Positions 3,001 through 53,300 of a stretch of DNA of 64,000 nt are shown here, piece after piece. This DNA is from Branchiostoma floridae (taxonomy: Eukaryota; Chordata; Leptocardii; Amphioxiformes; Branchiostomatidae). The DNA lies in the NCBI RefSeq assembly GCF_000003815.2, contig NC_049982.1, forward strand, positions 10,728,175 to 10,792,174, written 5' to 3'. The notes under the pieces are model-generated. The model did no database searches, was not told the origin of the DNA, and was given only the letters and a program-made list of their open reading frames with translations. A program made the translations under genes and the position numbers. How positions within the stretch are numbered: the stretch's first letter is position 1; every line of letters starts with the position of its first letter.

Positions 3001-6000
3001 TTTTTTTTTTTCAACCGACCGACCCAATTTTTTTCTGAAAAAAATCCAAGAAACAATAATGTAGTTCAACTGACAAAAACCATAAAGATCCACAACCCCA
3101 ACAAGTGTATCTGGAATTCATTACTTGGAGCTTCTCCAATGCTTTTTAATTTAGCTGGGAGCTTAATAACCTGTGTACAAGGCCAAGAAATATTAAAATG
3201 GTCATGTCAACATCAGCAGAAGCTCTTATTCATTTCACATGGGAATCTCTGTGCCTTTGAAAATTCATCAAGGTTTATATTGGACAGATCTACGAGTACA
3301 AAGGAACTACTGTACACAGTGCTGCAGGGCCTCACACCACATCTTTCACATCTTTGATATATGGTAGATCAAATTCAGCACATGTAGCCCCAGAAATGCT
3401 AAAATACATGAAAGCTAATTTGTTAGTCTTCATATTCTGCCTGGTAGCTCAGTTTGTAGGCACAAATGAGGCCACTGAAAGGCTGCTGCTTTTGTCTGGT
3501 ACAAAGCTGCACTGTTAATACTGCTGGGAGAAGGGGAATTCCCAAGTAAGGATTTCCCTGTTATACATGTTTCTAAAGAAATATTTACGAAATGCAAGTA
3601 CTGAAATATTACATGATAATAAAGATACAATGTATATACTTATATCTGGACGGTGAAAACTTACTAGTAGGTAAATGTTGTTTCTATCATTGAAGGAAAT
3701 GAAAATTTAATTTTCTATACTACTGTACAGGAATTGACCTACACCCATATATGTAGAAACACAGAAGGCAAAGCTGTTCTCATCCATGTAAGAGAACAAG
3801 GAATCAATTAAAAAGACTGACACATTTCATTAAGTATGACATCAAAATAAAAGGTGTTCTAAAAATTACACCAAAAAGAAAACAATTGTGACAATGTCAC
3901 TATTTGACCTTACAAAGGCCATGTTATTTGTACAAGCTTAATTCTTCTCAAACAAAGCAAGAAATGGTAAAAATAGATGGTCTACAGCATGCTCTGGTAT
4001 AGATATTATTGTAACCATTTTCTAAAGCTTTTAAATCTTAGATCTCCAAAATGTTCATAACGCAGTTACATTAATTTTTCTGGGGATATCTCTGATGTCT
4101 TGCACATTGACAAAAATTTTTTTTAGTAGAATATATTTTATTACCAATATAGTCATATAAACCTTTGTGACTTTCCCTACACTAGCTACCCTAGGCCCTC
4201 TTGTCAGCAGCCTGCATGTTTAACACAACCCATTCATGCGTGAAGCCAGACTGCTGAATTTCTGAGGCATTCAACACAGCTAAATACATACAAGGGACCC
4301 TGAGCCCTACTGGGGCATGACCAGGGCATTTCATTTATGGGTGGAAAAGCCTGGCTTGGTTCAAGTACAAGGAAGCCATTGTTTGTTTCCTGGGATCTGC
4401 GATGGCCAGATCTGCTTTACATCCTGCCAGGAATCTTTTAACACTGCTTCATTCAACTGTAACAACAGAAAATCAGCAACAGTAACTTTCTGATTATTTC
4501 TTTCAACTTTGCATTAGCCTATGACAATCTGCATTTCTTAACGTTTTATTGCATTTTCCTGACTGAGTGAGGCGCCATGTCCAAAGGAAATTCAAACCTT
4601 ACCAGAGGTCAATATAAAATATAAAACGTACAACAAAAGTAACAACCTTGCCCCCATGTGCCCTCCCTGACAGCTAGGAAATTGTGAATGTCAAGAATGT
4701 AAACTATATTAATTGAAACCTGATATGTCAACAAGAAGCCTGTACTGCAATATTTCACTTATAATGACAAAAAATGTACAAATGAAGGTTTCAGAAAGAC
4801 CCTACATTGAATTTCCCTGAAAAAGCCATTATGTGACAAAAACATTAATGCTCTTCAGGACCAAAGAGTTTTGGGACATGCTTATCCAAATTATAAGTAT
4901 CTTTGGGAGTAGGGAAGTCTGTTCAAGGAGGTTGAGCTACGACGGGGTGCTTATTATGAGCCGACTCCTATTCTTTTTCAACCTCCTTGGTCTGTTCAAC
5001 TCAGTTTGGCCTTAGACTTTAGAGTGTTAATCTTGTGTCTCAATTCTTGCAAACATCTTTTTTCGATCTTGTGGGTTAGTAAGGGTAGATCTGGGTCAAG
5101 TAAGCTGGGACTGAGGTAAACCTTCTACCCAGGCTATAAACACAGCATTAACCAGGGGCTGACAGCAAAGTCCATAGAGTAGAGAACAGGTTACAGAAAC
5201 GGTTCAAAAAGTTTTTTAGAAATGCATCACACAAGTTAAACTGTACATTTTTTTAAAAAGATTCACACTCACAGGATGAATTCTAATTTTTCAGACTAGT
5301 AGATGGTGGAAAAAAATCTGTAAGTATAATAGATATCTGGCATATATTGTCGTTAGACACAACAGAATAGAATACATTCGCAAACAACAGCGCAGCAACC
5401 ACCAAACTCCTTACTCAACAAAAGCACTGACACTACAAGAACTGACCCTCACTTTGTGTATGTTTTGCGTGTGTGGCCTCCATAGGAAGCTATTGATTTG
5501 AATAGGATTTTGTTTCTATCTATGTTATTGTTAGCAGTTCCAAGAGTTTGTGGTGGGACCAAAATAAACAAGTGGCAGACATCCACCTTTTGTCTACATT
5601 CCAGAGTGATTCCATACACTTCACAGTGAGGAGTGACATAAAACTGAGGCAGAGACTCAGCAGCGTATTGGCTACATTGGAATCACACAGGAACCAAAAA
5701 TTGCAAACAACATTGTGCTAAAATAGGTGGAAAGATGTCACATTGCATAAGAGATAGGTTTGGTTGTTTTCTTTAATAACTTAATTATACATAGTATTTT
5801 CCAAGCAGAGGTTTCAGTTGATAGGCTAATAGTGGGTGCAATTTTCTACTCTCAAAGCAGAGGTTATGCTCTGGCTGTTTTTTTTTAACGTGTTTTAGTC
5901 ATTTTTATCATATTTCTGCTGGCAGACGTCAAGAAACATGACAAAATAGAAAGGCCAATAAAAACGACTAAAATAAACATAAAAGAACAGCCAGAGCCTA

Positions 6001-8065
6001 ACCTCTGCTTGAAGAGTAGAAATTTTCTCAATTAGGTGACAACTTTTCAGCTTCACTCCGCTCTCTCAGTCACTTTCATAGCTAAAAAGGCTAGCACACT
6101 GGCTAGACAATTATTTGGAGGCAGCCACTACTTGTCCACTGACCAAAAGCTCTGCTTGGAGAATACATCCTTATGCCATAAGTTACCGGTATGGCAATGC
6201 AGGACAGGGATGAAAAGAAAGTGCAGCTAACAAACAAAACACTTCTGGAATGACTGGTTGCACTTACTTGGACAGATTAATACAGAAAAGTAATTGTGCT
6301 GATAGCCACCAGTTTCAACAGGTGGACACTTTCATCTACAATTGGTTCTAATACAAACCGTCCACACCTGGTGTAATGTGGTGAAAATGATGACAAGAAA
6401 GAGCCAGGGGAAATCAGTGGGATTATGTCCATTATCCTGATTGTGTCCAGTGGGCAACTCTTTATGTTGCGATTGATCAAAGTCAACCATAACTTTTTTT
6501 TTCTTAAACTTGAAGAAACATCTGGGGAGCGGGGATATATTTAAATTTATTCCCCATCACTCATTGTTTGGAAGCCCATGTTGTTAAGTTGTTAAATCTT
6601 AAGTCATTTAAGCTTACCCAGTCAGATAGCTTACATTAATTTCATGTCTTTACATTCAGGTTTGGGGATGGACAGGCTGAAATATATGTCCATTCCATAC
6701 CTAACATGTAAATTTCCATCTGGAGACAGGTCCTGGACAGCTATTTCAGGAGCTGTAAGGCTATATATTTCTTAAGAATCACATTTTTTAAGTTGTCTTT
6801 ATCAGTTCTTAAATACTCAGCATCCCTACATGTCCTCAGTAAGGTCTATCTAGTGACAGACAGTGAGAAACAGGTGATGACACCACTCAGATGTCACTGT
6901 GTGCATCAACATAGATAAAAACCACATGGCAGCAACCAAAGTACAGATAACTTATCACATAACATGAGGATTAGGGAAGATCCCTCTTCTATTCTTGAAT
7001 GGGTTAATTAAGCCTATGTATATGTACCAACCCATTTGGATATTGCATCCAGAGCTAGAGAGAAATTCTTCACATTATTTTTGAGAAAATTCACTGTTTC
7101 CCTTGCCAAATATGGAAACGTGAACATCTCCCAATAAACACTTTCTGTTTAGCTATAATGCTGGAAGCTGCTGTCATTTGGAAATCTTTTCCTGATCCTC
7201 TCTCCTTTCACTTTATTTACCATTCATCCAAGTATAAATCTTTGTTGACCCCACAAAGTTTCATCAAGGAGGTTTCATCAAGTTTCATACATTTTCAGAT
7301 ATTTCCTTGTTGCCCCTCAGACTGAACAGGGTAAATCCCGCTGTGATGTCTGCTGTACACTGGAAAGGAAAACTTGGCAACCATGATTACATTTTAAAGA
7401 TTTTCACAACTACACACCAAATACATGTACTTCCTTTGCAAGTTATGTCAAGTTCAGTACGACATCTTTTCTTATCACTTATGCAAAGGTTTGGAGTGGG
7501 TCTATTTGGGATGTTCTTTCCAGAATCATATTTTACAGCCGCTCTGAGTTTGAAGTCCAAGAAAAACGACAGCCTAGCGTGTAAGTGGAGGAAATGTGAC
7601 TTGGTATGTTCCTTTCAGCAAATATCTCAGGCTAGTTCCAAACCGTGGAGATGTCCCCGCCCCTCCTTAACTGTTGACACAAGTAAGGCTGGGATCACTC
7701 CATTAAAGCAGGTCACGTTCAAAGTCGCCAGCGGGCCCGTTACCACCCTTAGGGACCCAACACATCAAGAGGGAGGCAAATTTTCCGGACATGCCTACCC
7801 CAAGGTCGTGGCAGGCCCGTTCAGCGTGTAATTTGCCCGCCTTTGTTTTTGTGGTGTACGAAAACCAACTGTTGCGCTTTTCTTGCAGCGAGCAGCACGT
7901 TCCTGAGAAATAAAGACAGCCCGGTGCTCTAAATCTAACACACCTAACGTTAACATCCCCACAAACTTGTGACCACGTTGTTCAACAACTTACCTGACCC
8001 AAATCTTTCCCGTTCTCGCCTTCGTGGTGCTCCTCCATCTCGATCGCCGAACTCGAGGTCTCCAT
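1..8065 (-). CDS. 5' end of an incomplete gene, possibly an SLC6-type transporter
   Basis: Two coding exons are visible on the minus strand. Exon 1 (8065-7994) starts at an ATG in good context and gives 24 residues beginning METSSSAIEMEEHHEG; it ends CAG|GTAAGT. Exon 2 (177 to the window edge) follows a clean CCCCTCCAG acceptor in phase 0 and gives 59 open residues without reaching a donor. The visible 83 residues are acidic and polar, with RPIFIMDEPIEEP, then a cysteine cluster CCGCGEEN and ERGNWTC. The ending RGNW resembles the stretch just before the first membrane helix of SLC6 Na+/Cl- transporters, whose cytoplasmic N-termini are variable in the same way. The diagnostic helix lies outside the window, so the family call is only a guess; a small zinc-binding segment is an alternative. 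The intron is about 7.8 kb. The gene model itself (start, donor, acceptor, phase) is well supported. Confidence 0.55.
4916..4997. mobile_element. Short palindromic insert, copy 1 (64 bp) with flanking direct repeats
   Basis: The insert 4925-4988 begins AAGGAGGTTGA and ends TCAACCTCCTT, a perfect 11 bp inverted repeat. It is flanked by AGTCTGTTC (4916-4924) and GGTCTGTTC (4989-4997), which match at 8 of 9 positions. This is the longest of four inserts in the window with the same AAGGAG/CTCCTT ends. There is no coding capacity, so mobilisation in trans is inferred. Confidence 0.65.
5840..6026. mobile_element. Miniature inverted-repeat element (about 187 bp)
   Basis: The left arm (about 5840-5879: AATTTTCTACTC, AGCAGAGGTTATGCTCTGGC) is the imperfect reverse complement of the right arm (about 5986-6026: AACAGCCAGAGCCTAACCTC, GAGTAGAAATTTT). 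The interior is AT-rich and non-coding. A diverged half copy lies at 8,806-8,850 (CAGAGGTTAGGCTCCGGCTG). No convincing target duplication was found. The superfamily is not assigned. Confidence 0.6.
7258..7279. repeat. AAGGAG between 8 bp direct repeats (possible scar)
   Basis: GTTTCATC (7258-7265), then AAGGAG, then GTTTCATC (7272-7279). This looks like a terminus-only remnant of the palindromic insert family: target duplication kept, body lost. A simple local slippage duplication is the main alternative. Confidence 0.35.
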
Positions 8066-9699: not shown

Positions 9700-9750
9700 C
9701 TAACAATCAAGGAGGTTATATCAAGGAGGTTATATCTCCTTGAAACAATC
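9700..9750. mobile_element. Short palindromic insert, copy 2 (33 bp) with flanking direct repeats
   Basis: The insert 9709-9741 starts AAGGAGGTTATATC, repeats that unit once in tandem, and ends CTCCTT. The flanks are CTAACAATC (9700-9708) and GAAACAATC (9742-9750), matching at 7 of 9. It has the same termini as the copies at 4,925, 18,010 and 42,297. Confidence 0.55.
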
Positions 9751-13867: not shown

Positions 13868-16642
13868 CTAGATACTCTTGTTGACCCAGCTGGCACAATG
13901 TACCACCCTCTCCTTAGCATTATGATGGGATGTGAAGAGGGACTTGAACACCTCACTCCTGTTGGGATCATGGTAAATACTTGATGCCTTCCCTTTGTGT
14001 GCTCCATTTGGTTTGGTGCCTCCTCTGGATTTGTCCACTCTGGAAGATGATGCACCATTGGTCAGTTTGGTCAGCTTGCTGGGAGGTGGTCCGTCTGTGG
14101 AACTGGACGATGCTCCGTTGGTCAGTTTGCTGGATGATGGTCCGTCTGGTGAGGAACTACTACTGGAGGAAGCCTCAGCTGGTGCCTTGGATACAGTCTC
14201 TGCTGCACTTCTCTTCTGTTTTTTGGCTTTCTTGTCAGCCTTGGCCTTCAGCCTACGCTGCTCCATGCGTTCCTTTGCCTGAGGAAGGTCATCTTCAGCT
14301 GGGTTCAAGGTCACCACGTCCTCTTGACTGAGAGGGAAAAAAGAGAAAATTATAATTTAGGTCTTACTAAAGTCAGAAGACAAAAAGTACATGTATTTAT
14401 GTTATTGCAAAGGACACAAAAGTAAAAATGAATATAAAAGGAAGCAAAGAACTACAGATTCTTACATTGTTTTCATTTACCTTTCCTACACATACTTCCC
14501 TTTCCAACCCAAATAGCACCAGAGTCCTGACAATACATCAGAAATTAATAAACTTGATGTGCACAGAGAGCTACTACATGTTAATCATATTTCAGGAGTC
14601 AGGAACTTGTATGGTAACTGATATAAAAAAACACTGCTTGAAATTACCCCCTTGTGGCTCCATTAAGTCATGTTTATACATACCTGAAGGCAGCCCCACA
14701 TTTGTGACATGTCTTAGTCTGGACCTCCTTCAGCGCTCGTTCAGAGAACGCACAGCCACAGCCCCACAGGAAACAGAACTGGTAACGACCACTCATCTCC
14801 AGTCCCACCACTGGGCAGATGTACTTTGCTGCCTGGTGGTCTGCATATGCATCACCTGTAAGATAGGAAGAAGCCTCTTACCTTCACATGTCTCCTTTTA
14901 ATTTGAAACAAATGTTCTGCAACTTTAAGATGCGAATGACCTTGACAAGCCCTTCGGTCTAAATGCTGGTAAGTCTTACAGCAACTGAGCGGCTTTGTGA
15001 ACACTTACACATGTGTCTTAACCCTTCAGGCTGTTGGGTAGAAATCGTACATAGTACATACCACTGTCGGGCTTGCCATTCTTCCGTGCTGGGTTTTCCG
15101 TCAGCTGCAGTTCCTTCACATCCTTCAGCCCGCGAATGTGCTGAATGTTGGGGTTTCCTGACTTGTCCAGCAGAGCTTCCAGAAGGGCCTCCTTGTTGTA
15201 GAGATGGCCCATCTCACAGGCCATGATGGGCGGCCGCAGTGGCTCCTGGCTGAGCGCACAGTGCTGCCATTTTGCCACCATGTCTGCATTCTTGTCTTTC
15301 TGTAATGTGAAGGGATTGGATGTTAGACGAGCAGCAGACAGTTCTGCCTCAAGATCGACATTGGGCATAAACAGGTGCCAGAGAGTGTTATAGAAGAACA
15401 TAACTAGTATCAGAGTCAAAATTTAATGAAATTCTGATGGCTGATTGTTAACAGTTAGTGGGTCAGACTTATCAGGGAGCCCTCAAGACACAACTTACTC
15501 TTTTGAACTTCACCTTACAGTTTTCACCGAAGTGGACTAGTAAAAACGATATTACAAGACACTGGGTTTGTCATACCACATTGAACTTTCTTTGTGTATG
15601 CAAGACTTTCGTGCTCAGATTTTTTGACATAAAAATTGATAAAGAAGAAGAAGTTTTGTCCGTTCCTCCAACTCAAAAATTCTTGATATAGGACGCAAGT
15701 ATACAAAAGTAACGGTCTCCGCACTGGTGTTCCAGTGCTGAATCAATGGGTCAAATCGGCTTCAGCACTGGTTTTCCAGTGCTGAAGAAACGTCAGCACT
15801 GGTTTTCCAGTGCTGAACGGCCTTGTTCCAGTGCTCAAGCTCCCTCAGCACTGTAATTCCAGTGCTGAACCCAATGCGAGCACTGGATTTCCAGTGCTGA
15901 ACTTTTCCGAGCACTGGTTTTCCAGTGCTGAACTTCCGTCAGCACTCGGGTTCCAGTGCTGAACTCGCGGCGGAGAGGCGGCGAGCCAGTTCAAAGGTCA
16001 TTCAGCACTGGTTACCCAGTGCTGAAACCGCCGTCAGCACTGGAACCGAGTGCTGATATACAAAAGTAACGGGTTCCGCACTGGATTTACCAGTGCCCGG
16101 GGACTTTTCAGCACTGGAAGACCAGTGCTGTAAAAACTTCAGCTCTGGGCTTCCAGTGCTGACGTTTATAAAGCACTGGAACGTTACAGTGCTGAACGTA
16201 ATATTCGTGTAGCATGCGTCCGTACGGCTGTCTGAGTTATTTCCTTTAGACTTAGATATATCTGTCCGTGTTATTTAATCTCCAATCAGATCTTGTGTGA
16301 CACTAGCGTTTACTAGATTTGGACTAGAGTAGACACTTGTGATATTGTTTTTACATTATTTAAATCTATTATGTTACCAGTGAAATCCAGTGCTGAAGTG
16401 GTCGTCAGCACTCGGTTTCCAGTGCTGACAGGAGGGCCTCGAGTGCTGAAGCTGCCTCAGCACTGGATTTCCAGCACTTTCTCAAGTTTCTGCGACACTT
16501 TGTGGGGAGGGGGGCAACTTCCCTTTCTGATGAGTTTCAGAATACAGCCGTCAAATAACTACACCAAACATACCTGTTCTGGCTTTTTCTTCATCCTAAC
16601 GAGCTCATCCCTCTTTGGGATTGTTCCTCCGTCACATCCCAT
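13868..16642 (-). CDS. RTF2: Replication termination factor 2 (RTF2/RTFDC1), complete
   Basis: Four exons: 16642-16574, 15299-15062, 14855-14684 and 14327-13868, all with GT/AG borders, giving 312 residues (human RTF2 is close to this length). The start MGCDGGTIPKRDELVR is nearly identical to the family signature. Exon 2 carries the first U-box/RING-like half (ALSQEPLRPPIMACEMGHLY, then LLDKSGN). Exon 3 carries the second half: YICPVVGLEMSGRYQFCFLW, then CGCAFSERALKE and TCHKCGAAF. Exon 4 has a basic coiled stretch, a Ser-rich low-complexity linker and a conserved tail with EVFKSLFTSH and WVNKSI. RTF2 works in the nucleus at stalled forks; its removal via DDI1/2 and the proteasome allows fork restart. 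The Ser-rich linker contains a near-duplicate (SSSKLTNGASSSS.DGPPPSKLT). Intron 1 holds the dyad-repeat array. The gene is divergent from KMT5. Confidence 0.95.
15721..16478. repeat. Array of dyad-symmetric units AGCACTGG-n-CCAGTGCT in RTF2 intron 1
   Basis: About 14 two-armed units plus about three half units share the consensus (TT)CAGCACTGG-NNNN-CCAGTGCTGAA. Units start near 15721, 15761, 15793, 15845, 15878, 15909, 15939, 16001, 16033, 16078, 16108, 16139, 16171, 16405 and 16457; half units lie near 15826, 16386 and 16435. Spacers between units vary in length and sequence, while the arms are conserved. The 4-6 base loops vary (TTTT, TGTT, TAAT, GGTT, GAAG). A second duplicated block, ATACAAAAGTAACGG, precedes the units at 15721 and 16078. 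The array is interrupted by about 180 bases of unrelated sequence (16,200-16,375). Confidence 0.9.
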
Positions 16643-17798: not shown

Positions 17799-17958
17799 AC
17801 AGGAATTCTAGGTAATATGTCAAAGGTAAAGGTCCAGAAAATATGCACACAGTCCTTGTCTCAACACATTGTTATGATTTGCATAACAATGTCCAAACGG
17901 GTTTTGTTTTCTTCCTCAGAGCCTTTACCTTTGACATATTAAAACCTAGAATTCCTGT
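17799..17958. mobile_element. Miniature inverted-repeat element (160 bp) in the KMT5 5' intron
   Basis: The ends are ACAGGAATTCTAGGT (17799) and ACCTAGAATTCCTGT (17958), followed inward by a second shared block, ATGTCAAAGGTAAAGG, and its complement. The arms total about 36 bases with one small gap. The centre has its own dyad (ACATTGTTATG / CATAACAATGT). It is non-coding and of unassigned superfamily. Confidence 0.7.
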
Positions 17959-18000: not shown

Positions 18001-18054
18001 GGTTGTATCAAGGAGGTTAAAAAAATGTTTTTTTTTAACCTCCTTGGTTGTATC
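18001..18054. mobile_element. Short palindromic insert, copy 3 (36 bp) with perfect 9 bp direct repeats
   Basis: GGTTGTATC (18001-18009) and GGTTGTATC (18046-18054) flank the insert AAGGAGGTTAAAAAAA-TG-TTTTTTTTTAACCTCCTT (18010-18045). The flank match is 9 of 9 and the arms are almost perfectly complementary. This is the cleanest member of the family and lies in the KMT5 5' intron. Confidence 0.75.
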
Positions 18055-22437: not shown

Positions 22438-22502
22438 ATGACTCGTACAGTCACCGCTCAATCAGTCAAATTGACTGATTGAGCGGTGACTGTATGAGTC
22501 AT
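22438..22502 (+). repeat. 65-nt near-perfect hairpin at the start of the KMT5 3' UTR
   Basis: The left arm 22438-22469 and right arm 22471-22502 are 32 nt each around a single A. They are complementary except for one pair, which becomes G-U in RNA. It starts 36 bases after the KMT5 stop codon. The arms contain CAGTCACCGCTCAATCAGTC and its complement. Confidence 0.9.
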
Positions 22503-26076: not shown

Positions 26077-28184
26077 TTTAGTTTCTGTCATAACTTTCCA
26101 TGCCTGCAATACATAGCTGGCCATTAAGTAGCTGACATTTTGTTTTTAAACAGGGCATGTTTTATGTATACCTAGCATAAGGGTGCAATTGAGAATGGCT
26201 TTATGAGTATTGGTAGGGTTTGTAAATAATTCATTGACCATAGAAAAAGTTATCAATAATAGTGTTTCTTATGGTTCTAAATTGAATTGGCAATGCTGCA
26301 TTTGTATTATTGGGTCTTCACCTGAAGATTGTTGAAGGCGTTTTGGTTGTACACATTCTGAGCAATGAAAATGTGCCATGTTATGATATATTTAGTATCC
26401 ATGTAAATAATTTGCTAGTTCTATGGTATGACCAAGAACGTTTATGAAATATTTCTTCAAAATTCCTTAGTATAATAATTCAACTTTTAGCTTTGGTAAC
26501 CATTAATGATTTGAAAGTCACTTGTACATGAACTTGTGAAAGCATAATGCAATTGAATGTAAATATTTAATTTCTTTTGTATAACTTGAACAACATTGAT
26601 ATTAGGACTCAATGTGTTTATGTGGGGGCACATCATTGACTATGCATTGCTCATTAACAATGGTTAAAATTTTTAAAACAGAACTTGACTTTTTCTAAGG
26701 CTGTGTCAACTTCCTGTATTTAATTAATTCTCTGTTGTATTTGTGAAGGTTTGCAGGTCAAGTTTTTATCTGTACTAGGCCAGTTTTGCTGAAAAATATT
26801 TATGGCACGATTTATTCTTTTAACGGTTTGAATTGAGAACCGCAAGGTTGATATACATACTGTGCTGTTGAAAATACAGTTCTTGATAATCCTTACCTAC
26901 AATGTACTTTTTTTGCTGACATTTAACAATAGTGAGGCTTCATAGAAATATATTTTGGCAGCTTCACATGCTACCATATAGAGCTGTAGCCTGTGTACCA
27001 TCCTCCGTAGTGACTGCTGGCTCAATACATTTGAAGCATGGTACTCAGTAATCTCCAAGCAGATTCCTGGTGGCATAAGATAGTATCAAAGCTGGCCAAG
27101 GAGTATAGCCGGCCAGAGGTCAGCTGCCTGCTTGGAGAGGTACTCAGGCTACTAGTAATAGAGCTGTGTAACTTAACAATTTTAGGTGCAGGCAGAGTAG
27201 TTTAGGTACAGGTCCAGACTTGGACCCTAACAATTACGCCGATTATCAAAGTTACAAGGCACCCCTTTTTTTTAGTGGTTGTCATTTTCGGACGAGAATT
27301 GACGTATTTGAATCTCAAAATAAGTCTGTACATTTTATTAATCTTCAACTTGCAGGCTATCAACTCTTGTCACCTTTGAGACACGATTCACTTATCTTGA
27401 GTCTACATAAGTTATGTCCATTGACTAGTGACTAGTTTGGATACATGTACACCAGGTGTTGGTGTCCAGACCTGTAACAGCTTTACATAATTTACAGGTC
27501 CAGTTATCAGGTGTACACCCCTACTACTTGCCCCTACTACCATGCATGCAAGTATCTGTAAATTTTTTTAAAGACCTGTAGATATGATTGTACCATAGCA
27601 GTGGGAATGCGTGACTGACTTAATTCAGGTAGTAACACATGACTACAAACAAGCACGACCAATGCTGTAGCAAAGTGATTTATTTCTGCATGAATTGGGT
27701 GAGGACCTCTGGTGAATACAGTACAAAAACACAGCACGTTCTCAACACAGCTTAGGACCAGGGATTGTCTCCAAACTGCAATATCTGGCAGAAATAGGTA
27801 ACTAATATTCACACGTTTCCTGTCTTGAAGATACTTCTGTTTGTTAAACTGGACATCCCCCTTTGACATCAGTACTCTGTTGGTAGGCAACAAAGTTTGA
27901 AACTTTCCCTGGTATTTCTAAAGACATGGACGCCACTGTTCTGTACCATATGGCCTGGAAATCACGCGCTTGGGAGACCATTAAAATGTACTATGTTTGC
28001 TACATCATATTGCATACCTGACTTCGTGGCAACACACGACTAGTTAATAACAACGTCTCCAGCTTCTAGAAATCTTGCAACATCAGATAACCAGACGGGT
28101 CGTACCGTTTTACGTCATTACATTTCATTTTCACATCTGTAGCTGTGCAAGAAAGAACTGAAGAACGTCAACCTATGGAACAAT
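26077..28184. other. Zinc-finger 3' UTR and intergenic DNA
   Basis: AT-rich, no genes. It probably begins with the zinc-finger gene's 3' UTR, although no canonical AATAAA was found. It contains the short hAT-like element at 27,049-27,138. The minus-strand open frame at 27,537-27,893 has no recognisable domain. Confidence 0.45.
27040..27147. mobile_element. hAT-like miniature element, internally deleted copy (90 bp)
   Basis: The element 27049-27138 has ends TAATCTCCAAGCAGA and CTGCTTGGAGA. It is flanked by GGTACTCAG at 27040-27048 and again at 27139-27147 (8-9 bp duplication). Its left part (GCATAAGATAGTATCAAAGC) matches the longer copy at 42,008-42,183, so the two are one family. The 8 bp-class target duplication is typical of hAT elements; the assignment is by that criterion alone. 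Confidence 0.75.
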
Positions 28185-41999: not shown

Positions 42000-42191
42000 G
42001 TTTTGTATAATCTCCAAGCAGATGCTACGGTAGCATTAGATAGTATCAAAAGCTGGCAGAGGAGTGAAGCTGGCTTAGGAGTGTGTTTTGCCACAAATGG
42101 TCACAAATGTACACCTCTTGGCTGACTATCTCCTGGCCAGTTTGGTACTATCTTATGCCATTGTAGGATCTGCTTGGAGATTAGTTTTGTA
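42000..42191. mobile_element. hAT-like miniature element, full-length copy (176 bp)
   Basis: The 8 bp duplication GTTTTGTA (42000-42007 and 42184-42191) flanks an element 42008-42183. Its ends are TAATCTCCAAGCAGATGCTA and the complementary AGGATCTGCTTGGAGATTA, with complementarity continuing through TAGATAGTATCAAA / TTTGGTACTATCTTA. It is non-coding and is the same family as the 90 bp copy at 27,049. Confidence 0.85.
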
Positions 42192-42287: not shown

Positions 42288-42332
42288 GGTATTGGCAAGG
42301 AGCTTTTATCATAAAAGCTCCTTGATATTGGT
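42288..42332. mobile_element. Short palindromic insert, copy 4 (27 bp) with flanking direct repeats
   Basis: The insert AAGGAGCTTTTAT-C-ATAAAAGCTCCTT (42297-42323) is a perfect palindrome apart from the central base. The flanks GGTATTGGC (42288-42296) and GATATTGGT (42324-42332) match at 7 of 9. It is the smallest member of the family. Confidence 0.6.
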
Positions 42333-50300: not shown

Positions 50301-53300
50301 GTACAGTTCGCCAGGATTTGAAATGAGAAGCAACCTCATTGCCACAAGAAATGCGACTCAAAATACATTCCCACTCAAAGTATGTGTTTGTTTACAAACC
50401 TGTAAGCTTTTATCGGATAGATAGTACGTCGTAGACTGACTATTTCTAGTCGTGAGCACGGCCGATAGCTAAACGCCTCCAGATTGTGACGAGTCCGTGA
50501 AACATTTTGAGAGTAACTGTTCTTTCTGTCTCATATTTTTCTGCACAACAGACAGATTTTGTAAGCTCCCAGTGATTCGAGGAAAACACACAGACTGGTG
50601 TTTCCGTGATAGAAAATTCGAAAAGTGTGGTTAAATAATAGCGCATGGCACGGGGCCGCCATTTCTTTGTGAGGAATTTTTCTTTGTTGTTGACGACGAA
50701 AAATCCAAGATTCACTCGTAACTAGGTTTTACGGAGACCATATCAGTACTACATATAAATGCTACAATATTCATGACAAAATCTAGCGACAAAAGTGCCA
50801 AGTTTGTAGCTACACGAGCAAAAAAAAAACGAGTTATCGATGACATAGTAACGAGTACGTACATGCTTGTGGTCCCGCAACCTCGATATATTTTCCTTTG
50901 TTTACATGCTCAGGTTACGCTAGAAGTTTTTATACAAAACCAAACTATTTTAACTCATCTATCAACAACATGTCCACCGCTAAGACACTAAACAACACAC
51001 AGATTTCGTAAGCTCCTAGTGATTCGAGGAAAAACATACAGACTGGTGTTTCCGTGAAAGAAAATTCGAAAAGTCTCTGAGGTTTTTAGCGCACGGCCGC
51101 CATCTTTTTTGGGGCCATTTTTCTTAGAGTTGTTGTTGTTGACGACGAAAAATCCCAGATTCGCTCGTAACTTGGTTTTACGGAGACCAAAAACTACAAT
51201 ACTCATGACAAAATCTAGTGACTATTTTTCCAACGTATTTTGAATACGGTCAGCAAATTTTCGTGCTTGAAAATCTTGGGACAGCGTCGGCATCATTGTT
51301 GTTACGAGTTCGGTATAAGCGGTTCACTTTGTTATGAAATCTATCCGGACGCCGACAAAGATGTAAAATCCAAGAATCATTTGTGCTGTTTTGTGTCGGA
51401 GTCTAAGCGTACAAGTACTTCACAATAATGGCAACACAGTTATGACCAGAACAAGCTAAATACAAGGTAAATTTACAGGGTGAATTACTACTAGTATGTG
51501 ACAGATAAACGTCCTGCAGCTGTGATAAACTGTGGCGAATTCACCCTTCTCCGCGCGCGTTCCGTGACTGGAGTCGGCAGACCAGCGGTGTCAATAGTTG
51601 GAACTTTTCCTGCGATAATCCTTCTGGTCCTCCCACAGCTCTCCCAAGGTATAATCTCAAGGTTCATGTTGAAGTACGAGGGCTCGAAGTGTGCGGAGCT
51701 CGAAGTGTGCGGAGCCGTAGATGTCGCGGAAGGAACCATGCCGATGCCTCTGAACAAACTTGATACATAATTTTGTACACTGTTTTCTAGCTCGCTGAGA
51801 CTCTCAATTTGTCAGCCGCAGTTCTGTCATTTTTAACTTTGGGGAATCTGTGCATAGATATCCCCTCGGTAGACTGACTATTCTTACAGCTAATGCCATG
51901 TTGGCCTCCTGCGACACAATAACGTCCACTGGACTTTGTACTAACACGACCTGTACTACAAGACGCCATTACAGCGGACAGGGGTAGAGCTACTACAAGA
52001 ACGCGACTCTCTAAAATGACGTCATGCATATCATTTGAATTCGCCCTCGGATGCCCCAGATCGCACTTTTTGAAGACGTTTTAACATTACTTCCCGACCG
52101 AATTATCACATGAAAAATATTTCAATCTAATAGCGAGGAAATGACCCTCTAGATCGTTAAAAAATAAATTGTATTCAATTGTATTTCTGCAAGTCTTTAA
52201 ACAACTCAAAATGAGACTTCACATTTCAGTCTATGGTGAAAAACAAGTCTTTTTGTTAAAACTAAAAGCTTCTTCTATAGTAAAACCCACTTCACTAGGA
52301 TCAGAATAGCTAATAGATTAACTTTAGTTCTTGAATAGACTCTAAACTTGGTTGTACTGCCTTCGTATATCAGCACTTTACAATATATTAGTAGCATTAT
52401 TACCCATCATGCAGCAGTGTTATGACCAGGCTTTCCTGGAATACTCCAAAAATTCTCTATACTCCATAGCATCCTGTTTTCATGTTTTCTGCTTGATTTC
52501 TTTAAACTTAAACTAAAAGCATATATAATTTATCACACAAACTTCTGTCATACATCATTTTATGAAGATTTCTATGTAAAGTATTTTATATAGGATTCCA
52601 TATTGCCAACAGTGACCAAATAATTTACATGACATTGTATTCTCTACTATGAGATGTAGAATTCCTTTGAAACTGATTTTTTTTCAAAGTGCTGTCTGTA
52701 GATCCATCAACTTCAAGCACAAGGTGAACATCAAGCCTACCATGATCACAGACATGCAAGGCCACTGCAGCCAGCACCAGTCAAACTGAGGAAGTAGTGN
52801 NNNNNNNNNNNNNNNNNNNNNNNNNNNNNNNNNNNNNNNNNNNNNNNNNNNNNNNNNNNNNNNNNNNNNNNNNNNNNNNNNNNNNNNNNNNNNNNNNNNG
52901 AATAACGAACATGCAATGCTGCCATGCTATAGCTAGTCCTATGTATTTGGCAAAACATGTAGGAGCTTGCGCATCCTATTTTTCGTTTTCATTAATTTGA
53001 TTTATTGATCAATTTACAGCATATCCTGTGGTAGCCTGTTTTTATTTTGATATGAAGGATGAAGTGCCTGAGGACAAATAGTACAGAAGATAAGAAGCTT
53101 AAAATAATCTACTGTTGTAGGCATCTGGGACTATAATTACTACCACATCTCGAGTATGATCACTGCAGTTCTCAAGGATCATATAGGTCTTATTTTGATA
53201 TCTCATGATACAGATGGGCTAGTTTACTATAAACATTGGGGAGTGTTTTCTGAAGATAACCCTTACAGCCATGAACAGTCTTGTTAAAGCATTGACATAC

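Follow-up and report, generated by a model that had tools for sequence, protein, structure and literature searches.

Short palindromic inserts between 7-bp repeats in amphioxus: probable excision scars of P-superfamily transposons

Introduction

Four short inserts in amphioxus DNA begin with AAGGAG, end with CTCCTT and lie between direct repeats, which raises the question of whether so small a unit can itself be mobile or is what a larger element has left behind. The inserts lie in a stretch of 64,000 nucleotides, C4:10728175-10792174 (the window), in an assembly of 513,431,437 bp, and all genome comparison was made within this one assembly. It is very probable that these tiny inserts are excision scars of P-superfamily transposons and not miniature transposons. 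The mechanism is already known; its scale here and the architecture of the parent elements are unusual.

Four inserts in the window

The original prediction described four loci with shared termini and repeated flanks, and the window sequence contains all four inserts, with their flanking repeats, where they were predicted. In the 7-bp register adopted below, the features are:

4917..4923, unstranded: target-site duplication, left copy GTCTGTT, 7/7 against 4990-4996
4924..4989, unstranded: probable scar in which ~12 nt from one end of a P-type transposon family meets ~54 nt from the other; DNA search finds relatives with the same right end at 89-93%, full-length copies included
4990..4996, unstranded: target-site duplication, right copy GTCTGTT, 7/7 against 4917-4923
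9701..9707, unstranded: target-site duplication, left copy TAACAAT, 6/7 against 9743-9749
9708..9742, unstranded: probable scar with one end as a 14-bp tandem duplication (CAAGGAGGTTATAT x2, then CTCCTTG)
9743..9749, unstranded: target-site duplication, right copy AAACAAT, 6/7 against 9701-9707
18002..18008, unstranded: target-site duplication, left copy GTTGTAT, 7/7 against 18047-18053
18009..18046, unstranded: probable scar, near-perfect 38-bp hairpin with CAAGGAGGTTAAAA.. ends
18047..18053, unstranded: target-site duplication, right copy GTTGTAT, 7/7 against 18002-18008
42289..42295, unstranded: target-site duplication, left copy GTATTGG, 6/7 against 42325-42331
42296..42324, unstranded: probable scar of the CAAGGAGCTTTTATCAG family, 29 bp; an identical 29-mer is listed at C1:14993428
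42325..42331, unstranded: target-site duplication, right copy ATATTGG, 6/7 against 42289-42295

The flanks thus match at 7/7, 6/7, 7/7 and 6/7 of their positions. The interiors were also expected to be self-complementary throughout. This holds for the near-perfect hairpins at 18009-18046, which belongs to the GGTTAAAA family, and at 42296-42324, which belongs to the CTTTTATCAG family; it fails at 4924-4989, with arms of ~12 bp around a unique interior, and at 9708-9742, with arms of 7 bp and the 14-bp tandem duplication.

In 100 dinucleotide shuffles of the window, an AAGGAG..CTCCTT pair with a gap of up to 80 occurred 0.33 times on average and at most twice, compared to four loci in the window (5 rows, one nested). 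When the flanks were also required to match at 7 or more of 9 positions, none of the 100 shuffles matched the pattern, against the 4 real loci. On the + strand, CAAGGAGGTT was observed 5 times where 0.09 were expected, four times inside the inserts and once outside (7265). When any 6-bp inverted ends were allowed, still with flanks matching at least 7/9, the window gave 10 matches, compared to 3.66 on average and 8 at most in the shuffles; after removal of the four loci it is not clearly enriched. A chance origin is rejected by these shuffles together with the genome-wide counts against their control. Small bacterial repeats are likewise rejected, since the window carries animal exons (Rtf2, C2H2 zinc fingers), and Rfam gave no match in the window. 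Viral contigs, used as an unrelated control, contained 3 loci that amount to 2 distinct palindromes, and inspection by eye showed flanking repeats at neither.

A genome-wide class with 7-bp target duplications

The inserts belong to a numerous class. The pattern AAGGAGN{4,34}CTCCTT occurs 4,875 times genome-wide compared to 1,298 times in the reversed control, and with the outer C and G included, CAAGGAGN{0,20}CTCCTTG (14-34 bp) occurs 2,572 times compared to 37, an excess of ~70-fold. A genome-wide count above chance had been proposed as a check, and this is the outcome. Between 35 and 64 bp, the same ends with outer C and G give 1,128 matches against 57 in the reversed control; part of this excess is another repeat of 59-60 bp, CAAGGAGTATAGCCGGC..., whose copy L021 (the one with flanks read) has no flanking duplication.

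Flanks were sampled at 41 of 50 distinct listed places, all at the start of contig C1, and in the window, which gave 51 rows in total. Repeats of 7 bp matching at 6 or more positions flank 29 of the 39 rows with C..[GA] ends, and 20 of these are perfect (7/7). The controls are far lower: 0-1 in shifted registers, 11/1,482 for swapped flank pairs and 2/12 for rows with other ends. Two of the 10 C..[GA] rows without the repeat are nested inner matches of scars that do have it.

Among the 29 repeat-flanked rows, the inner C is present in 29/29 and the inner G in 26/29, while the outer G and the outer C are each present in 10/29. Because the inner bases are (nearly) constant and the outer ones are not, the C and G are part of the element, as had been suspected, and the duplication is 7 bp long. 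The 9-bp duplication first considered gives way to one of 7 bp outside CAAGGAG...CTCCTTG, as full-length parents and an empty site also indicate. The 7-mers of the 29 scars show a base preference, with G first in 17/29, T at position 2 in 22/29, A at position 6 in 18/29 and C last in 14/29. The 7-bp register also rejects hAT elements, which make an 8-bp duplication.

The single empty site is paralogous. The repeat around L039 has a copy at L009 (9381-9560, minus strand) that is ~80% identical and lacks the insert, and there the 7-mer is single, reading GTTTGGG for GTTCAGG. Retention of a single-copy target at an empty site, a further check proposed at the outset, is therefore true at one paralogous site, in an ~80% identical copy. 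With 29/39 rows carrying repeats of at least 6/7 and parents carrying 7-bp duplications, the flank identity is indeed that of target-site duplication.

Elements of a Mutator-like kind would duplicate 9 bp. In the AAGGAG register the flanks at 18010 do match 9/9, as they do at three fetched loci (L029, L031, L039). The contrast between the inner and outer bases speaks against this origin, as do the 7-bp duplications found in full-length parents, scars and the empty site, and the P-type domains of two parents; for chance hairpins, the count is ~70 times that of the control. Mutator-like elements or chance hairpins are therefore extremely unlikely sources of the class.

Full-length parent transposons

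A DNA search with 4924-4989 gave 8 matches, which include elements of 1,217 bp with 39-bp inverted repeats. Three complete 1,217-bp copies are 99.6-99.8% identical and lie between perfect 7-bp duplications (TTAAGAG, CTGGCAG, GTGAAAC); no open frame of transposase size was found in the 1,217-bp elements. A profile search with PF21787 (P-type RNase H) found 3 loci in the genome, two of which were extended to long parents. The first, C11:17071456-17080139, is 8,684 bp long; its inverted repeats measure 38 bp, and AAGTCAT flanks it on either side. The second, C19:10308832-10317273, is 8,442 bp long and flanked on either side by CTCTAAC; it has the CAAGGAGCTTTTATCAGGAGGAGAG ends that mark the second scar family, and a shared tip of 31 nt, CAAGGAGCTTTTATCAGGAGGAGAGAGCAAG. 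A perfect 7-bp duplication is present in 5/5 parents readable at both ends outside simple repeats; a sixth parent, C1:3741925-3743111, sits in a CA repeat, where the duplication is uninformative. The original view that the ends derive from transposons is borne out by these full-length elements, which share both the ends and the 7-bp duplications.

Both long parents carry PF21787 (2.2e-20 and 3.4e-19) and a C-terminal PF21789 exon (3.3e-7 and 3e-8). Pieces of PF21788 were also found in both, one in C19 above the cut-off (1.9e-5) and two others below it (5.2e-4 and 6.4e-4). The parents thus combine P-type transposase domains (RNase H halves and a GTP-binding insertion), a 7-bp duplication (with a palindromic GT...AC tendency in the scars) and terminal inverted repeats, as expected of the P superfamily. 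P elements and THAP9 typically have an N-terminal THAP domain, which is not treated as a defining trait here. Scanning of the ORF pieces, whose exons are not fully mapped, gave no THAP match, and RAG1_imp_bd was found instead. A PDB search with a 713-aa transposase piece gave nothing significant (best E 0.73, a tail protein).

On sequence grounds, a P-type parent can be assigned to each of two scar families, beside which GGTTAAA and GGTTATAT define further scar families. Longer relatives with the same ends and a coding capacity for transposase, which had been suggested as something to look for, are therefore represented by the 8,684- and 8,442-bp elements, and the transposases they encode are of the P superfamily, which leaves a Mutator-like enzyme unsupported. 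Inside the window, a search for longer elements with the same ends (end pairs up to 8 kb, flanks at least 6/7) returned 6 pairs, of which four are the known loci and two are long (2,215 and 4,168 bp) with mismatched ends. On the strand opposite the C11 parent there is also a 351-aa open frame without Pfam match (L059:1343-2392, +).

Arm lengths and junctions

The first scar family, GGTTGAAAGA, is matched 71 times in forward and 73 times in reverse orientation, compared to 0 in the control, and the matches listed cover 85 distinct places with 62 distinct sequences. Its parent end is CAAGGAGGTTGAAAGAGGGAAAGG. Arms were measured against three reference ends, two of them assumed variants, and the anchored arm length peaks at 21 nt (22/85 listed); arms exceed 21 nt in 5/85, by 3 nt at most. 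Against the sequenced parent end alone, 15/85 of the listed places stop at 21, 2/85 at 22 and none beyond. The second family, CTTTTATCAG, has 413 + 403 matches in all (control 0), with 68 places and 49 distinct sequences among the matches listed. In 62/68 listed places neither arm is longer than 18 nt, and in 6/68 the longer one exceeds 18 nt. The search patterns required 16 nt of one arm for the GGTTGAAAGA family and 14 nt for the CTTTTATCAG family, so that shorter arms are uncounted and longer ones, far longer in the GGTTGAAAGA family, were allowed; the matches listed come from the first contigs.

The junctions recur in a predictable way. If the tail of the first family is 21 nt long, it offers a single 2-nt terminal microhomology (AA against TT), which predicts CAAGGAGGTTGAAAGAGGGAACCTCCTTG, the commonest listed scar (10/85). 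For an 18-nt tail in the CTTTTATCAG family, a 2-nt terminal microhomology predicts CAAGGAGCTTTTATCAGATAAAAGCTCCTTG, again the commonest listed scar (8/68), while products predicted from 17- and 19-nt tails each occur at most 3 times among the matches listed. The second-commonest listed scar of this family (5/68) is not a product of 2-nt microhomology. Among the members of a third family, GGTTATAT (232 + 224 matches, control 0), is a perfect palindrome of 42 bp made of CAAGGAGGTTATATCACAAGG and its complement (21+21); a 42-bp palindrome occurs in the first family as well.

One could suppose that the inserts are palindromes of 20-40 bp that are bound by transposase and move as units. They share their ends and the 7-bp duplications with the parents, and identical sequences do occur at several listed places (10/85 in one family, 8/68 in another). 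Many of the listed sequences nonetheless differ from each other, including at the junction (62 distinct among 85, 49 among 68), and the commonest are those that terminal microhomology predicts. L030 and L038 have only 20 bp between intact duplications, probably too short for two transposase-bound ends, and the insert at 9708-9742 and L046, which likewise has a 14-bp duplicated end, carry duplicated ends such as repair could leave. Such micro-transposons are highly improbable. The mobility of a minimal unit, as first proposed, is unsupported by the listed matches. The repair product offered beside it comes close to the probable excision scar.

The inserts might alternatively be remnants of internal deletion, in which the middle of an element was lost via a hairpin or replication slippage, without cutting by transposase. 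A minority with long or very unequal arms would fit this: 4924-4989, with 54 nt of one end; C1:10092319, with 27-nt arms and a 54-bp palindrome; and C1:3569083, with arms of 31 and 17 nt. A 31-nt arm is found in a 51-bp scar. Internal deletion does not explain, however, why two families should have arms that end near 18 or 21 nt, and although the patterns allowed longer arms, only 5/85 exceed 21 nt and 6/68 exceed 18 nt among the matches listed. As a general origin it is highly improbable.

Proposed excision and end joining

Excision scarring would account for these features as follows. A P-superfamily DNA transposon with ends CAAGGAG...CTCCTTG would insert and duplicate 7 bp of target. On excision, the transposase would cut one strand at the junction of transposon and host and the other ~18-21 nt inside the end, so that each broken chromosome end would keep a single-stranded tail of transposon end sequence. 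From the arm limits and junctions of the two families, we infer a staggered cut 18 and 21 nt inside the ends. The two tails would be identical in sequence and could not pair along their full length. They would instead be joined by end joining, either at short microhomologies, by flush ligation once filled in, or with short insertions, probably in a polymerase-theta-like pathway. In the product, the two target copies would enclose a portion of each end, in some cases with filler between the portions, which makes a short imperfect palindrome.

The scars show what is expected of excision footprints, namely both target copies, limited end lengths, and microhomology or an insert at the junction, with exceptions. 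L008 contains 11 nt copied in from its own left flank, beside a weak flanking repeat (4/7). One-sided scars, with one end, almost none of the other and both target copies, occur at L065 and L071; of the 18 one-sided places read, others lack the second target copy, and five have a flank in common. The one-sided CAAGGAGCTTTTATCAG ends at L061, L062, L063, L069 and L076, with the common flank AGCTTCCAC, are probably copies inside another repeat. The insert at 4924-4989, with ~54 nt of one end, was probably formed by partial resynthesis before joining. For P elements, repair synthesis that stops short and is then closed by end joining has been described (PMC2895639, excerpts).

Several observations weigh against excision scarring. 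The tail lengths of the families differ (18 compared to 21 nt), and Drosophila P has 17. To explain the long arms, either partial resynthesis or an ordinary internal deletion is needed; certain junction sequences are found repeatedly, as would be expected of a mobile copy; 10/39 rows have no repeat; no locus with both a full-length and a scar allele was seen within the single assembly; and there is one empty site, in an ~80% identical copy. On this evidence, some of the scars may instead be products of ordinary internal deletion.

If most are excision scars, they are natural products common enough to record both the departure of transposons and the DNA repair that followed. With thousands of apparent scars in an animal reference genome, the position of the cut, the repair pathway and the ratio of excision to insertion may be readable from sequence alone. 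Excision would also provide a plain origin for short palindromes of a kind easily taken for micro-transposons.

Comparison with known systems

MITEs are short and non-coding, with inverted-repeat ends and target duplications, and the scars resemble them in all of these respects. Unlike MITEs, many scars are not copies of one another, and the recurrent ones fit preferred junctions.

The closest parallel is found in the excision products of the Drosophila P element, for which excerpts of PMC2895639 describe 17-nt tails, microhomology and templated insertions; a 17-nt stagger is also part of the P-element mechanism as excerpted from PMC7776569. Like the amphioxus scars, these products consist of a target copy, a limited end, microhomology or an insert, part of the other end and a target copy, and form short palindromes (PMC2895639). 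They differ in that they were laboratory-induced, with 17-nt tails and 8-bp target copies, while the amphioxus scars are natural and numerous in a reference genome, with 7-bp copies and probable tails of 18-21 nt.

Galileo, another member of the P superfamily, makes mostly 7-bp duplications with the consensus GTATTAC or GTANTAC (PMC4168063, in part). The amphioxus elements share P-type transposase domains with Galileo and P, and the scars lean towards GT...AC, in line with mostly 7-bp duplications and the palindromic consensus GTANTAC of Galileo (PMC4168063, PMC7776569, both in part). They differ from Galileo and P in the 38-39-bp inverted repeats of the parents, which start with CAAGGAG, and in a RAG1-N-like transposase N-terminus. 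Among the literature listed for this class of scar, no source mentioned these scars in amphioxus, which is not proof of absence.

A RAG1-like N-terminus on the parent transposase

The start of the parents' transposase resembles the RAG1 N-terminus. In the C11 parent (L049:2-424), the RAG1-N-like region lies in a separate frame that overlaps the catalytic frame (PF12560, 1.1e-10), and it matches solved RAG1 chains at 5.8e-7 (21wb) and 9.8e-5 (6oem). In the C19 parent (L056/L081, C19:10310191-10312491), the RAG1-N-like region and PF21787 are in one frame of 767 aa (PF12560, 9.4e-12), which matches 21wb at 4.7e-4 and 6oem only at 0.058. A genome search with PF12560 found at least 7 places, one of which is the C19 frame; the C11 frame is missing from this list, which is therefore incomplete.

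A transposon composed entirely of RAG1-N-like sequence, N-RAG-TP, has been described in Aplysia (PMC8355894, in part). By that description, the amphioxus parents are alike in carrying RAG1 N-terminal-like sequence on a transposon, and the C19 parent is set apart by having it in one frame with a P-type catalytic domain (PMC8355894).

A possible reading, to which we give somewhat less than an even chance, is that in a chordate lineage of the P superfamily the transposase joins a RAG1 N-terminal region and a P-type catalytic core in one protein, as in the 767-aa frame within a bounded transposon, and that its many germline scars record, across evolutionary time, tail lengths particular to each family (18 compared to 21 nt) and theta-type repair. 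If this is true, it would single out the P superfamily as the sort of transposon on which the RAG1 N-terminus was carried and from which it was perhaps donated. The presence of RAG1-N-like sequence on P-type transposases bears on the origin of that part of the V(D)J recombinase.

Other features of the window

The window contains an assembly gap of ~100 N at ~52800-52900 and several further repeats. An array of palindromic CAGCACTGG/CCAGTGCTG units with a period of ~31 bp lies at 15732-16471, and an inverted-repeat family like CAAGGAGTATAGCCGGC...GCCGGCTATACTCCTTG, which inflates simple motif counts, lies at 27049-27138 and 42008-42183. A foldback element at 5843-6022 has long inverted ends around AGCAGAGGTTA..TAACCTCTGCT, and an inverted-repeat element of 160 bp, at 17799-17958, is just upstream of the scar at 18009. 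Finally, a 49-bp palindrome is found at 22446-22494, and its stem continues outward beyond one mismatched pair.
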